Assembly: GCF_000981225.1 (NCBI RefSeq)
Contig: NZ_LAJC01000015.1
Span: forward strand, 1-64,000
Reading direction: 5' to 3'
Source: Allosalinactinospora lopnorensis
GTDB taxonomy: Bacteria; Actinomycetota; Actinomycetes; Streptosporangiales; Streptosporangiaceae
DNA length: 64,000 nt
This document shows, piece by piece, positions 13,302 through 22,118 of this stretch. How positions within the stretch are numbered: the first letter of the stretch is position 1; each line of letters begins with the position of its first letter. The notes under the pieces were generated by a model. That model had not been told where the DNA came from. It saw only the letters and a list, made by a program, of their open reading frames with translations, and searched no databases. Made by a program: the position numbers and the translations under genes.

Positions 13302-13538
13302 CTAACCGCCGGCCGCGCCGTTCCCGGAGGCCCGCATCAGGGGATTGTGCTCCTTGCCGGTGCCGGCGCACATGCGGCAGGGTTCGTCGACCCGGACCCA
13401 GTGGATCACCCCGCTGCTGTCCCTGCGCGGCTTCTCCGGGCGCCACCAGCCAGACCCCGAGCAGAATCGGCAGCAGAGGTCGTCGCGTTCACACCATTCG
13501 CAGTCGGTAAGGGCGCACCGTTCGCGCGTCGATGTCAT
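13302..13538 (-). CDS. Small DnaJ-type zinc-knuckle protein (downstream copy)
   Basis: About 78 aa, Cys-rich: CEWC, CCRFCSGSGWWRP and CRMCAGTGKEH, i.e. CxxCxGxG-type knuckles like those in the DnaJ cysteine-rich domain, with no J domain. The start ATG (13538) overlaps the stop of the upstream small gene as ATGA, so the two are translationally coupled. A GTG at 13544 is an alternative start. Function unknown; zinc binding is inferred from the Cys spacing. Confidence 0.6.
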   Translation of the reverse strand: MTSTRERCALTDCEWCERDDLCCRFCSGSGWWRPEKPRRDSSGVIHWVRVDEPCRMCAGTGKEHNPLMRASGNGAAGG

Positions 13539-13690
13539 GCGCACACCCCTGTCCCTCTGCAGGTATCACAGTCCTCCACACTGTCGACGAAGATGACCGT
13601 GCCATCAGCTCCCCGTTTAGGGCGCTGGTAGGTCAGCTTTCCCGTCCCATGGCAGCGACCGCACGGCGGCGGCTCCGAATTACGCGGCAT
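13535..13690 (-). CDS. Small DnaJ-type zinc-knuckle protein (upstream copy)
   Basis: About 51 aa: MPRNSEPPPCGRCHGTGKL at the N-terminus and DCDTCRGTGVCA at the end, two CxxCxGTG knuckles separated by about 30 residues. ATG 13690 follows GGGAGGGG by 3 bases. A longer reading frame starts at 13825 but lacks a better ribosome site. It overlaps the next small gene by 4 bases (ATGA). No J domain or chaperone gene is nearby. The function is not known to me. Confidence 0.6.
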   Translation of the reverse strand: MPRNSEPPPCGRCHGTGKLTYQRPKRGADGTVIFVDSVEDCDTCRGTGVCA

Positions 13691-14070
13691 CGACCCCTCC
13701 CGCCCCACCGCGAAAGCGTGCACAGCCTCGCACAGCCGGTGATCAGCCGTCCAGAGGAATGTCGCACCGAATTGACCTCTTCGTTTCCCTCTCGCAATCC
13801 GGCGCGGTCGCGCCCCGTCCGCCATTCGCCGATTGCGGCCGGGAACCAGAACAGCGTCCGAAAGCCGTCCAGGAGGCGGTCCCGGCCCCTACCGGCACGG
13901 CCACACGCCCCCCGGAAACACGTAACATTCGTCACAACCGGGCCGTACTCACCCCGGGCACACGGGGCGCACACCCCCTCTCACCGAAACCACGCCCACC
14001 ACGCGTATTACGAACCTATAAACTCTGTCGGCAGCGTAACCGCCGGCACCCTTTCGCCAGACGGAGCGCA

Positions 14071-14215
14071 CCCCTTTTAAGGTTCTCGAAGGGGCGTACG
14101 CCCCTTGTAAGGAGACACCCCCTCCCCCCAGCGGCAGACGCGCCAGGACGGCGTGCGGTCCGTCCTGGACGGGGAACCGACCGATGTTGCGCGGGTCCGC
14201 CCCCCATGGACCCGC
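14071..14215 (+). promoter_or_regulatory. Repeats and hairpins in the leader of the VldE-like gene
   Basis: A possible -10 TATAAA lies at 14017-14022. Downstream come direct repeats CCCCTTTTAAGG (14071-14082) and CCCCTTGTAAGG (14101-14112), an 18-bp perfect palindrome AAGGGGCGTACGCCCCTT (14089-14106), then two hairpins: CCAGGACGG/CCGTCCTGG (14143-14168) and GCGGGTCC/GGACCCGC (14191-14215). The last hairpin ends about 6 bases before the GAGGAG ribosome site of the gene starting at 14235. This looks like a control region; I cannot match it to a known riboswitch class. The rest of the 13691-14234 gap holds no supported gene. Confidence 0.5.
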
Positions 14216-14234
14216 AAGCCGAGGAGCGACTTAC

Positions 14235-15275
14235 GTGGAGCCCTACCGACGAACCGGAGCGGACGACTTCGCCGACTTCTGGGCGCCAGACCCCGACTGC
14301 CCGCGTTGGAGGGACCGCCTCAGAGAGTTCGTCCGGTCCCGGCCGGGCACCGAGCGCGGCCGGATCGTCGTGGTCGCCGCCGCCCTTGTGGCGTCCCTGA
14401 CCGCCCCCCTCCCCGCAGCCTCCGCCGGAGCCCCGCCGCCGAAGGAGTCCGAGGAGAGCCTGGAGTCCCTTACCGAACGCTCCGAGTCGCTCAGCGAGGA
14501 GTACAACGGCGAGTTGCGCGATATGGAGGCCGTCCTGGGCGACGCCAAGAGGGCCGAGGAACGGGCCGAGCAGACCCAGAAAGAGGTCGAAGCGTCGTCG
14601 GAGCAGGTTCGGCAGCTCGCCATCGCCAGCTACACCAACGGCGGCGTCGATCCCGCTTTCTCGCTGTTCGTGGACGAGGAGCCGCAGGAGCTCATCGACC
14701 GCGCCTCCCTGGTCCAGCACCTGTCCAGCGCGCACCAGGACAAGATCGACATCCTCGAGGAGGCTATCGAGCGTGACGAGAAGGCGCAGGACAACTCCAA
14801 GGAGAAGGCCGCCAAGGTGGAGGAGGACCTCGACGAGCTCGAGGGCCAGCGCGAAGAGGTCCAGGAGCTGATCGCCGATTACCCCGAACAGGAGATAGGC
14901 GGTTCGGACAACCTCACTCCGCGCACCCGGCAGATGAGGGACGTCATCACCGAGGAGTTCGGGGAGAACAAGAAACACGGCGGCGTGGGCTGCTTCCGGG
15001 AGGAGGGCGGCATCGTCGTCGGGGAGCACCCCAAGGGCCGTGCGTGCGACTTCATGGTCGCCAAGTACCGGATGCCCACGAAGGAGCAGAACGAGCGCGG
15101 CCAGGCCATCGCCGATTGGGCGCAGGACAACGCCGAACGGCTCGGCATCATGTACATCATCTGGCGCCAGCAGATCTGGGACATCCGCCGCGGCGACGAT
15201 GGTTGGCGCGACATGGATGACCGCGGCAGCATCACCGAGAACCACTTCGACCACGTGCACATCTCGATGTTCTGA
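14235..15275 (+). CDS. Secreted coiled-coil protein with VldE (ARB_07466-like) C-terminal domain
   Basis: Exported protein probably acting at the cell wall. Order: cytosolic N-terminus (about 50 aa), hydrophobic segment GRIVVVAAALVASLTAPLP then AASA, a long coiled coil (about residues 75-235, rich in Glu/Lys/Gln) like RipA/NlpC partners, and a C-terminal domain with VGCFREEGG, GRACDFMVAKYRMP, LGIMYIIWRQQIWD and ENHFDHVHISMF. This C-terminus matches the VldE/ARB_07466-like domain, of unknown activity, often found on actinobacterial wall hydrolases. GTG 14235 follows GAGGAG by 9 bases. It ends 54 bp before a convergent small membrane-protein gene. No frameshift. Confidence 0.82.
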   Translation: MEPYRRTGADDFADFWAPDPDCPRWRDRLREFVRSRPGTERGRIVVVAAALVASLTAPLPAASAGAPPPKESEESLESLTERSESLSEEYNGELRDMEAVLGDAKRAEERAEQTQKEVEASSEQVRQLAIASYTNGGVDPAFSLFVDEEPQELIDRASLVQHLSSAHQDKIDILEEAIERDEKAQDNSKEKAAKVEEDLDELEGQREEVQELIADYPEQEIGGSDNLTPRTRQMRDVITEEFGENKKHGGVGCFREEGGIVVGEHPKGRACDFMVAKYRMPTKEQNERGQAIADWAQDNAERLGIMYIIWRQQIWDIRRGDDGWRDMDDRGSITENHFDHVHISMF

Positions 15276-19076: not shown

Positions 19077-21353
19077 TCACCCGGGCGGCTCCGCCCGGAC
19101 CCGGCGCGCGGCCTCGACCATGTTGCGCAGGGCCGGTTCCACCTCCGCGTAGCCGCGGGTCTTCAGTCCGCAATCGGGGTTAACCCAGAGGCGTTCCGGT
19201 TCGACCGCTGTCAGCGCGTTGCGCAGCGCCTCCTCGATCTCCTCCACCGAGGGCACACGCGGCGAATGGATATCGTAGACGCCCGGGCCGATCCCCCGCC
19301 GGTAACCGGCGGCCTTGAGGTCCCCCACCAGCTCCATGTGGGAGCGGGCCGCCTCGACGCTGGTCACATCGGCGTCGAGCGCCTCGATCGAGCCGACGAT
19401 CCGGCCGAACTCCGAGTAGCACATGTGGGTGTGGATCCGGGTGCTCGGAGCGACGCCCGAGGTCGCCAGCCGGAACGAACCGATCGCCCACTTCAGGTAC
19501 TCGCCGTGCGCCTCCTCGCGCAGTGGGAGCAGTTCACGCAGCGCCGCCTCGTCGACCTGGATATGCCGGATCCCGGCGCGCTCCAGGTCGAGGATCTCGT
19601 CGCGCAGCGCGAGCGCCACCTGCCGCGCCGTGTCGCCCAGCGGCTGGTCGTCGCGGACGAAGGACCAGGCCAGCATCGTGACAGGCCCGGTCAGCATGCC
19701 CTTGACCGGCTTCTGGGTGCGCGACTGGGCGTAGGTGATCCACTCCACGGTCAGCGGCTCGGGCCGCGAGACGTCACCGTAGAGGATCGGCGGGCGGACG
19801 CACCGCGAGCCGTAGGACTGCACCCATCCGTGTTCGGTGGTGGCGAACCCGTCGAGCCGCTCGGCGAAATACTGGACCATGTCGTTGCGCTCCGGCTCGC
19901 CGTGGACCAGCACGTCCAGGCCGATGTCCTCCTGCAGCGCGATGACCCGGTCGATCTCGGCGCGCATGCGCCGCTGGTACTCCTCGGTGCTGATCCGCCC
20001 GGCCCGATGATCGGCCCGGGCCCGGCGCACATCCGAGGTCTGTGGGAACGATCCGATGGTGGTCGTCGGCAGACGGGCCGCTGAGTCCGTCGCCGCCTCA
20101 CGACGCTCGTAGCCGGTACGGGAGGGCTCCTCCCCGAGCGCGTCCAGCCGGGCCCGCACGCGCCGGTTCGTGAACGACAAAGGGGTCTCGGCCGCGGCCC
20201 GTCCCTTCTCCAGCTCCGCGGTAACCCCCTCCCCGCCTTCGGACAGTGCCCGGCCGAGCAGCACCACCTCGTCGACCTTCTGCCGGGCGAAGGCCAACCG
20301 CTCCCGCAGCTCCGCGGGAAGGGCGGCCTCGGCCTCCAGATCGATCGGGACGTGCAACAGGGAGCAGGAGGTGCTGACGGCGACCTCGTGTGCCAGCCCC
20401 AGTAGCGAGCCGAGCCTCGACAGCGCGTTCCCGAGGTCGGTTCGCCACACGTTCCGGCCGTCGACGATCCCGGCGACCAGGACCTTGTCCCCCAGCCCGG
20501 AGACGCCGGCGAGCTCGCCGACCGCCTCGGGACCGCTCACCAGATCCAGCCCGACGGCCTCCACCCGGGTGCCCTTGAGGAGCTTCAGCGCTTCGGTGCC
20601 GATCGCTCCGAAGTAGGTCGAGACGAGGAGTTCCGGGCGATCATCGAGGGCGCCGAGCCGTTGATAGGCGCGCTCCAGCGAGCCGAGCGCGGCCCGTCCC
20701 TCGTCGGTCGCCAGGATGGGCTCGTCCAACTGCACCCTTCGGGCTCCCGCCGCTGAGAGCTGTCCGAGCAGGTCGGCGTAGCAGCCGAGCAGGTCATCCA
20801 GTAGCTCCAGCGGACTCCATTCCTCAGGTGCCTCAGGGGCCGCCTTGGCCAGCATCAGGAAGGTGAGCGGGCCGAGCAGGACCGGCCGGGTCTCGATGCC
20901 GAGCCCCTTGGCCTGCGTGTACTCGGACAGCGGCTTGGAGCCGGACAGGCGCAGCCGGGTCCTTGGCGAGAGCTCGGGGACCAGGTAGTGGTAGTTGGTG
21001 TCGAACCACTTCGTCATCTCCAGTGGAGGGGCGTCCTGCGCGCCCCGGGCCATGGCGAAGTAGCGTTCCAGCTCGGTCGCGTGGTCCTCCGCGGTGTTCG
21101 GGTCGTCGAAGCGTCCGGGTACCGCACCGAAGAGAACGGCGGTGTCGAGCACGTGGTCGTAGTAGGAGAACGTGTTCGACGGGATCTCGTCGAGCCCGGC
21201 GTCGCGCAGGGTCTCCCAGACCTCGCGGCGCAACCGCGCGGCGACGGCGTCGAGTTCGGCCGCGGTGCTCGCCCCGCCCCAGTAGGACTCGCTGGCCCGC
21301 TTGAGCTCGCGGGCGCCGCCGATGCGGGGGTATCCGTGGATGGTGGTCCTCAT
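19077..21353 (-). CDS. metE: Cobalamin-independent methionine synthase
   Basis: Transfers the methyl group of 5-methyltetrahydrofolate polyglutamate to homocysteine without B12. 758 aa, full length. N-terminus [16 protein letters not shown] carries the family's YPRIG; zinc and substrate motifs appear as [10 protein letters not shown] and [32 protein letters not shown] and [15 protein letters not shown] are classic MetE blocks. ATG 21353. Upstream lies a cobalamin riboswitch, expected to switch metE off when B12 is present so that MetH takes over. No frameshift seen. Confidence 0.97.
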
Positions 21354-21534
21354 CGGACATCACCACCGTGAACCGTTGTGTCGTTCGGCATAGCTTTTCT
21401 CTCCCTCGTCGAGCAGCCGCAGGCCCGGACACCATCGGGGAGAGCGCGCGAGTCGCAGGTGGCCCCATAGCCGCCTCTCGCCCTGGCCCTCCCTCGGGGC
21501 GCACGGACCACCGCGGACGCGGGCGCGTCCGCGG

Positions 21535-21740
21535 GCGGTGGCAGGTCTTCGGACTCGTGGGCGCTGCGCGGTGCTCAGTACCGCGGTCTCCTACCGGCCG
21601 CCGCTTCCCGGGCGCGTGCACGCCCAGTGCTCTTGGCGGCTTTCGTTCCCACATACCGCTGCGGGGCAGTCCCGGATTCGCACCGGGGTTCCCTCTTGCG
21701 ACACGCGTCGCTTTTGCGCCGCGTGTACCAACCGCAACTG
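21535..21740 (-). promoter_or_regulatory. Cobalamin riboswitch controlling metE
   Basis: Minus-strand leader with the hallmark blocks: GAATCCGGGACTGCCCCGC, then GGGAACGAAAGCCG, then GAAGCGGCGGCCGGTAGGAG, and the B12 box TCCGAAGACCTGCC near 21540-21553. A possible -10 TATACT sits at 21743-21748, just before the aptamer. A likely expression-platform hairpin follows (GCGGACGCG / CGCGTCCGC, about 21513-21532). The start codon is about 185 bases beyond the aptamer. Binding of adenosylcobalamin would be expected to lower metE expression. Confidence 0.93.
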
Positions 21741-22118
21741 CCAGTATAGGGATGTTCTTTATGCGGCACTGGGCGGCTCCTCCGCCGGTACCGTACGATG
21801 CCGGGAATGTTCTGATTACCGCGTCGCTCACCGTGTGCCGGCCGGTCGATCAGAGCCGCGTACCAGTGTGGTTCGTCTATTGCACAATCGCACCCGGACG
21901 TGTTTCCCGGACCGGTGCTCGTCGCCGACGTGCCCCACCCGGCAGCGGCCGGGCATACCGCCCGCGGTTCCGGGGCTGGGCAGTAGACCAAACCCGAATC
22001 GATATCTGCCCCACAGAACTCGATATGCGATTTCCTTCGACATAGCGGGACGGCTCGTCCCACAATCAGTTCCCGCGCCACCAGGCCTTTGAAAAACGAA
22101 AGAGACGCTGGCCGCCAC

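Follow-up and report, generated by a model that had tools for sequence, protein, structure and literature searches.

A possible conserved leader RNA, with two predicted promoters, upstream of a VldE-like endopeptidase gene in Allosalinactinospora lopnorensis

The region preceding the gene of a predicted VldE-like zinc endopeptidase in Allosalinactinospora lopnorensis may specify a conserved leader, served by two promoters and acting after transcription; from the comparison of orthologous regions, I put the chances of this reading at about even. The window considered in this study is a stretch of 64,000 nucleotides (64 kb) from contig NZ_LAJC01000015.1, and all coordinates refer to it. The comparison shows that promoter boxes and a linker motif recur amongst the orthologs, that two helices covary within a related genus, and that the strands of a closing helix are complementary beyond what swapped or shuffled strands provide. 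Such a leader might then work through a factor that reads the linker, through a 5′ strand that exchanges partners, or through a hairpin that protects or exposes the start site.

The picture I favor is that the region consists of a promoter and the transcribed 5′ leader of a gene for a VldE-like peptidoglycan endopeptidase. In the relatives, the leader would run from a 5′ hairpin through further hairpins and a purine-rich linker (GACGA or GAGCA) to a terminal hairpin a few bases 5′ of the Shine-Dalgarno site, and the leader in the window appears to share this layout. It would act after transcription, with the linker most likely serving as the recognition site of a factor supplied in trans, protein or small RNA, and with the adjoining hairpin setting ribosome access or protecting the message. 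The initial annotation had likewise proposed a structured leader before a VldE-like gene, without a visible core of the c-di-AMP riboswitches, and that much is supported; the direct repeats and palindrome that it placed at the core of the element belong elsewhere, as described below.

The gene and the orthologous regions

The gene lies at 14235-15275 on the plus strand. Its GTG start, at 14235, is preceded by GAGGAGCGA, and the core of its Shine-Dalgarno site, AGGAG, occupies 14222-14226. AGGAG precedes the start in 43 of the 43 listed leaders, which were themselves selected by the AGGAG pattern. The product, 346 amino acids long, consists of a hydrophobic N-terminal stretch, a coiled coil, and a VldE-type C-terminal domain. 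Its proposed identity as a VldE-like wall enzyme is borne out by the C-terminal 120 residues, which match PDB chain 9flh (presumably the VldE structure) with an E-value of 3.5e-16 and keep both H-x6-D and TENHxDHVH. The same C-terminal pattern (HxxxxxxD, ExHxDHxH) characterizes VldE (Spr1875) of Streptococcus pneumoniae, a LAS-type zinc endopeptidase whose catalytic zinc ligands are H301, D308, and H375, with E368, H370, and D372 in an adjoining loop (PMC11667670). Alignment places both the ligands (H, D, H) and the loop residues (E, H, D) in the protein from the window, which is accordingly predicted to be a VldE-like zinc endopeptidase. A Pfam search with the whole protein returned only Laminin_I, below its cutoff, the C-terminal part alone returned nothing, and no VldE match appeared in either. 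The protein differs from VldE in its N-terminal part, where the coiled coil weakly resembles RipC (39.6 bits, against a curated cutoff of 425). The two differ also in regulation: VldE is controlled by VicRK, with no leader RNA described in the available text of PMC11667670, whereas a leader is predicted for the gene considered here.

Divergent to the endopeptidase gene, on the minus strand, are two short overlapping reading frames rich in CxxCxG (13302-13544 and 13535-13825), the longer of which, 13535-13825, matches the central domain of DnaJ below the cutoff.

Seventy distinct ortholog upstream regions were compared, including that of the window (L001). They were taken from a 200-genome sample of the family, a scan of named genomes (27 loci), 40 genomes of a related genus, and single regions. 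The window's own genus is represented by one genome, and named members of the set include Nocardiopsis, Thermobifida, Streptomonospora, Marinactinospora, and Actinorugispora. I will refer to the related genus, another genus of the window's family, as g47. Among its contigs are some named Nocardiopsis and one named Streptomonospora nanhaiensis, and its 40 genomes gave 38 leaders, one gene being cut by a contig end and one being a duplicate. The closest relatives of the window are L007 and L008, with proteins 77% and 75% identical, and alignments of these two with the window are called trio alignments. L078 was dropped (cut contig), and identical leaders, e.g., L086, L089, and L092, were counted once. 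Removal of near-duplicates from the 32 leaders outside g47 (L001 included) left 27 representatives, 23 of which entered the tests of pairing with the 16S tail and of likeness to the Shine-Dalgarno site.

Promoters, repeats, and palindrome

Two promoters are predicted. The upstream one, P_A, has a −10 box TAAACT at 14019-14024 (plus strand), within a ATAAACTCTG block that L007 and L008 share, and would start transcription near 14031. The downstream one, P_B, has a degenerate −35 box TCGCCA at 14054-14059 (four of the six bases of TTGGCA) and a −10 box TAAGGT at 14078-14083, both on the plus strand, the latter aligning with TAGGGT in L007 and TAGGCT in L008; in all three genomes this block stands about 60 bp 3′ of the ATAAACTCTG block. 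The predicted start of P_B, near 14090, falls inside the palindrome described below. Transcripts from these tandem promoters would have leaders of about 205 nt (P_A) and 145 nt (P_B). A start 3′ of 14168 would speak against a leader of this kind, and both predicted starts, placed by the −10 boxes and the two relatives, are upstream of that position. No promoter was detected by a generic sigma-70 scan.

The boxes recur more widely. The plain form of P_A, C[CT]TA[GC]A[CA]TC, is present in 37 of 38 g47 regions and 11 of the 27 other representatives (shuffles about 0.1), and the P_B pattern, TTGG[CT][AG]-N16-18-TANNNT, in none of the 38 and 13 of the 27 (shuffle mean 0.03), counts that measure recurrence rather than independent discovery, since these patterns, like that of the linker motif, were chosen after seeing the sequences. 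Both plain patterns fail to catch the window itself.

The window, L007, and L008 also share a box of the form GTAACATT(G/C)GTCAC, upstream of both promoters. In the window this candidate operator reads GTAACATTCGTCAC (13922-13935), and it is kept as GTAACATTGGTCAC at −294 in L007 and −289 in L008. I rejected its interpretation as an MtrA site, because its spacing is off the consensus as given in the accessible text of PMC13189361 and the loose pattern GTNAC-N4-7-GTNAC matches in just 5 of the 70 upstream regions.

The repeats, palindrome, and hairpins that the initial annotation reported within 14071-14240 are all present at the places it gave. Direct repeat 1 (CCCCTTTTAAGG, 14071-14082, plus strand) overlaps the −10 box of P_B, and direct repeat 2 (CCCCTTGTAAGG, 14101-14112, plus strand) shares its first half with the right arm of the palindrome. 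The two are identical at 11 of 12 positions and spaced 30 bp apart. Of 200 dinucleotide shuffles of 14071-14240, 5.5% contain an equally good pair, as do 11% of 376 tiles (170 nt each) from the window, and the repeat pair is therefore unremarkable. The palindrome (AAGGGGCGTACGCCCCTT, 14089-14106), which spans the predicted P_B start, is 18 bp long and perfect; no other perfect palindrome whose arms measure 9 bp is present in the 64 kb, and its like occurs in 0.3% of 1000 shuffles and 0.3% of tiles.

The size and position of the palindrome are what would recommend it as a DNA operator, bound by a repressor at the start of P_B, with the downstream hairpins incidental. I regard this as improbable. 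By trio alignment, both the palindrome and direct repeat 2 are absent from L007 and L008, while the promoter boxes and a terminal hairpin are present there. A regulon marked by the repeat half CCCCTTNTAAGG was considered and rejected, as the genome of the window has 21 sites with at most one mismatch (both repeats included), compared to 47 for the reversed control. An operator would also leave the covarying hairpins of the relatives unexplained. The overlap of repeat 1 with the −10 box and the absence of the other two features from the closest relatives remove the repeats and palindrome from the core of the element: they belong to the promoter and start region of the window's lineage, separate from the RNA element.

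Helices of the leader and their conservation

In g47, P_A is followed in order by UCCC(G), the 5′ hairpin, further hairpins, CGGGA, a linker (typically AAAGACGAGAAGCAG), the terminal hairpin, and, as a rule three bases on, AGGAG. The terminal helix was assessed in a plain MAFFT alignment of all 38 sequences, not fitted to structure, where 88.6% of cells are paired, as compared to 15-49% in versions slid out of register. Fourteen cells are changed on both sides (5.5 in shuffles) and the covariation score is 0.236 (0.170 in shuffles), each value reached by 0 of 500 shuffles; pairs showing such changes number four, a count that 29 of 500 shuffles reach and that does not stand out. For the 5′ hairpin, in 35 sequences, 73.8% of cells are paired (1 of 500 shuffles), 19 cells are changed on both sides compared to 10.2, and the score is 0.264 compared to 0.182 (2 of 500 in each case); two further measures are unremarkable (pairs with changes on both sides, 296 of 500; the other, 257 of 500). 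Stems free of covariation would have told against the structured leader of the initial annotation, and two helices do covary, in relatives of another genus. These signals and the complementarity taken up next are strong hints and not proof, since descent alone can exceed shuffles of this kind.

The closing helix, UCCCG with CGGGA, was examined in 37 leaders, with L099 excluded as it is without the P_A pattern. In 28 of these it is 5 bp long or longer. Its mean length is 5.11 bp, compared to 4.76 when strands are swapped (0 of 500) and 3.82 when they are shuffled (0 of 300), and its duplex energy is −12.04, compared to −11.53 swapped (5 of 200) and −11.29 shuffled (0 of 60). An earlier test that relied on an anchor gave 5 of 1000 swaps; it mislocated several 3′ strands (e.g., those of L035, L070, L091, L096, and L126) and was redone without the anchor. 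In the subclade of L088, L091, L112, and L114, the linker differs (GACCCGA) and three of the four members, L088, L112, and L114, have a closing helix of 11 bp.

Consensus folds from RNAalifold were obtained for seven subclades, comprising 35 of the 38 leaders (L085, L099, and L110 excluded). The closing helix appears in only two of them, a and e. The partner of the 5′ strand is instead the Shine-Dalgarno core in subclades d, d2, and f and the bases immediately preceding that core in b, while c gives a mixed picture. Because the folds differ in this way, the 5′ strand can be said to have two predicted partners that exclude each other. The result weighs against the closing helix and leaves my estimate for the leader as it was, since that claim is carried by the terminal and 5′ helices.

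Outside g47, GACGA or GAGCA occurs between −83 and −55 in 15 of the 27 representatives, where shuffles average 2.9 with a maximum of 8 and other slices of the same leaders give 0 to 2. GACGA is found at −64 in L007 and −65 in L008. In three leaders of another genus, g41 (L029, L033, and L087), GAGCA could, judged by eye, occupy the loop of a hairpin formed by CCCC...GGGG where the terminal stem begins, an arrangement that the predicted folds do not contain and that is unlike the open linker of g47.

Two hairpins are predicted in the window itself, both on the plus strand. The middle one (14143-14168) has 9-bp arms and an 8-nt gap, and its sequence is not conserved in L007 and L008 by trio alignment. 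The terminal one (14191-14215) has perfect arms of 8 bp and nine pairs when folded. The initial annotation put its end just before the ribosome site, which is right as to neighborhood and inexact in wording, as it ends 6 nt 5′ of AGGAG. As many perfect 8-bp hairpins were seen in 0.1% of 1000 shuffles and 1.6% of tiles. One compensatory change, GGUCC/GGACC against GGCCC/GGGCC, can be recognized by eye when the terminal hairpins of the trio are compared in their inner portion. The leader as a whole folds mildly better than shuffles (z of −1.76 for 14089-14240 and −1.63 for 14071-14240). In the minimum free energy fold of 14071-14240, CCCC at 14126-14129 (plus strand) pairs with 14171-14174 as a predicted closing helix; it is not in the fold of 14089-14240, and its likeness to the UCCCG/CGGGA helix of g47 is an analogy of layout only. 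The 3′ strand of this helix and the linker together make up GGGGAACCGACCGATG (14171-14186, plus strand), which both the trio alignment and the alignment to the model called R1 below identify as the counterpart of GGGAAAGACGAG in the relatives, with the exact GACGA or GAGCA motif missing from the linker.

Two covariance models bear on how far the g47 element extends. R1 was built from 36 g47 leaders, with the Shine-Dalgarno site included, and R2 from the linker and terminal hairpin without it. (The A2 and A5 alignments, of 36 sequences, exclude L125 and L126; A4, of 35, excludes L099 in addition.) R1 recovers both withheld leaders (L125, 44.0 bits; L126, 31.9 bits), and in L008 its match falls where expected, with 23.0 bits (E = 0.018). 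Low matches at expected places were obtained for L031, L025, L032, and L027 (10.8-14.0 bits). The window is matched at 14169-14237 with 16.0 bits, a local E-value of 5e-4 that becomes 0.57, the level of noise, over the 70 loci; position and register before the gene are the same, with mostly the Shine-Dalgarno context behind the match. With R2, the hairpin of the window scores −0.5 bits and the best match within 13950-14300, 3.0 bits, lies elsewhere, so the window does not qualify as a member by covariance model, and the expected site was found, under default filters, in 0 of the 31 other loci outside g47. Since the model lacking the Shine-Dalgarno site misses the hairpin, the R1 match in the window rests on the Shine-Dalgarno context, and the other low matches may do so as well.

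The case for an RNA element in the window is thus made from position, layout, and the three-genome comparison, which give weak direct evidence. The promoter boxes, the layout, and the terminal hairpin do recur in relatives. The covariation comes from another genus, with a model that does not transfer without the Shine-Dalgarno site, which makes the window's leader no more than a candidate for a new type. Chance is a further reading: an upstream sequence that is simply GC-rich, its hairpins a coincidence, would be consistent with the whole-leader z of only about −1.7 and with the failure under R2. The covariation in g47 and the positional motif in other genera make this very improbable.

A weightier possibility, though still an unlikely one, is that the terminal hairpin is a generic stabilizer or spacer, which guards the message or keeps the Shine-Dalgarno site free with no signal or factor involved. 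The hairpin varies strongly in size and sequence between genera, and a failure of models to transfer is to be expected if all that matters is the presence of a hairpin. The hairpins before 58 other genes are fairly stable too, with a mean of −17.9 kcal/mol. A mere spacer would not call for the linker motif, found at a constant distance in 15 of the 27 representatives, nor for the covarying 5′ helix and the closing complementarity of g47. It also favors the leader that the terminal hairpins of the 70 orthologs, averaging −23.3 kcal/mol, are more stable than those of the 58 other genes and than shuffles (−20.9), although differing GC content (0.76 compared to 0.70) confounds this comparison. It counts against the leader that in six orthologs (L016, L018, L020, L023, L094, and L095) its predicted length is only 52-59 nt.

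Known RNA classes and modes of action

The comparison with the ydaO/c-di-AMP model that the initial annotation had called for bears out that annotation, which could not see the conserved core of that class in the leader. RF00379 has no match in 13950-14300 up to an E-value of 5, where the only hit is a microRNA on the minus strand (14.7 bits; gathering score, 90.5). Nor did any Rfam 15 model match up to an E-value of 1 in 17 loci (L001 and 16 relatives), or in the leader when the whole window was scanned at gathering scores. RF00379 is absent as well from all ten family genomes searched (G000, G071, G006, G164, G127, G021, G085, G072, G018, and G023); the control search found it in two of 14 control genomes, those of Bacillus subtilis and Corynebacterium glutamicum. 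The resemblance to this class is one of setting, in that the ydaO/kimA c-di-AMP riboswitch is likewise a structured leader of actinobacterial wall hydrolases: it precedes nlpC of C. glutamicum, where it is thought to act on translation, and rpf genes are named too, with rpfA of Streptomyces coelicolor (PMC9960051). The leader in the window differs in having no match to RF00379 in sequence or structure. A brief check of the literature on leaders of Nocardiopsis and Thermobifida gave nothing relevant among the matches listed. The leader is probably an unstudied RNA control region and no known riboswitch.

The sole match in the window at gathering score is a cobalamin riboswitch (RF00174, 84.4 bits) at 21523-21748 on the minus strand, upstream of a gene at 19077-21353 on the same strand that I take from its sequence to be MetE-like; this is an ordinary arrangement.

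A new class of metabolite riboswitch controlling translation of the endopeptidase seems highly doubtful to me. Its attractions are the multi-helix leader with a recurring linker adjoining the Shine-Dalgarno site, the 5′ strand whose two predicted partners, the Shine-Dalgarno site included, exclude each other, the results from Rfam just given, and a wall-enzyme target such as c-di-AMP riboswitches have (PMC9960051). Against it, the element apparently serves one gene only. When R1 was run over 120 genomes with stricter filters, under which weak matches are lost, 10 genomes had matches with E-values of at most 0.1; the three strong matches are g47 orthologs, one strong copy in each of three g47 genomes, and among the eight weak matches the highest-ranking, L136, falls within a coding frame. 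Pairing of the Shine-Dalgarno site with the 5′ strand also fails against swaps (−11.16 compared to −10.98, 48 of 200; shuffles, 1 of 60). A pseudoknot between loop (CCCG) and linker (CGGG) received no support either: in 36 sequences, own pairs score 10.0, swapped pairs 9.6, and shuffled pairs 8.9, and of nine variant sequences four lie above the swapped mean and five below. The CGGG on the linker side is better explained by the closing helix.

Other modes of action were considered. Attenuation by an intrinsic terminator is unlikely, since none was found in 13800-14400. The predicted ensembles of the 70 regions reveal no common partner for the Shine-Dalgarno site, which has a mean unpaired probability of 0.46 and exceeds 0.5 in 31%. 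Landing of ribosomes upstream, at the linker, was rejected: pairing of the linker with the 16S tail gives −5.71 kcal/mol compared to −6.80 for shuffles in g47, and −5.63 compared to −5.37 elsewhere. Linkers resemble their own Shine-Dalgarno sites slightly, in 6.24 of 9 bases compared to 5.93 in g47 and 6.09 compared to 5.54 elsewhere, a likeness that surpasses 50 of 50 shuffles in both sets.

A more specific proposal, a long shot, is that this undescribed leader RNA serves bacteria of this group as a translational switch for the endopeptidase, in which the 5′ UCCCG would either close with CGGGA, leaving the Shine-Dalgarno site free, or pair at the Shine-Dalgarno site. The GACGAG linker and the terminal hairpin would read a signal from the wall or from ions, in a lineage whose ten searched genomes have no c-di-AMP riboswitch.

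Wall hydrolases need tight control, to which leader RNAs contribute in other actinobacteria. The comparison presented here separates the promoter parts of the region from its RNA parts. If the conserved leader is regulatory, it would offer a tractable system, limited to one gene and having defined helices and a linker to mutate, for the control of a peptidoglycan endopeptidase in a group whose searched genomes have no known c-di-AMP riboswitch.
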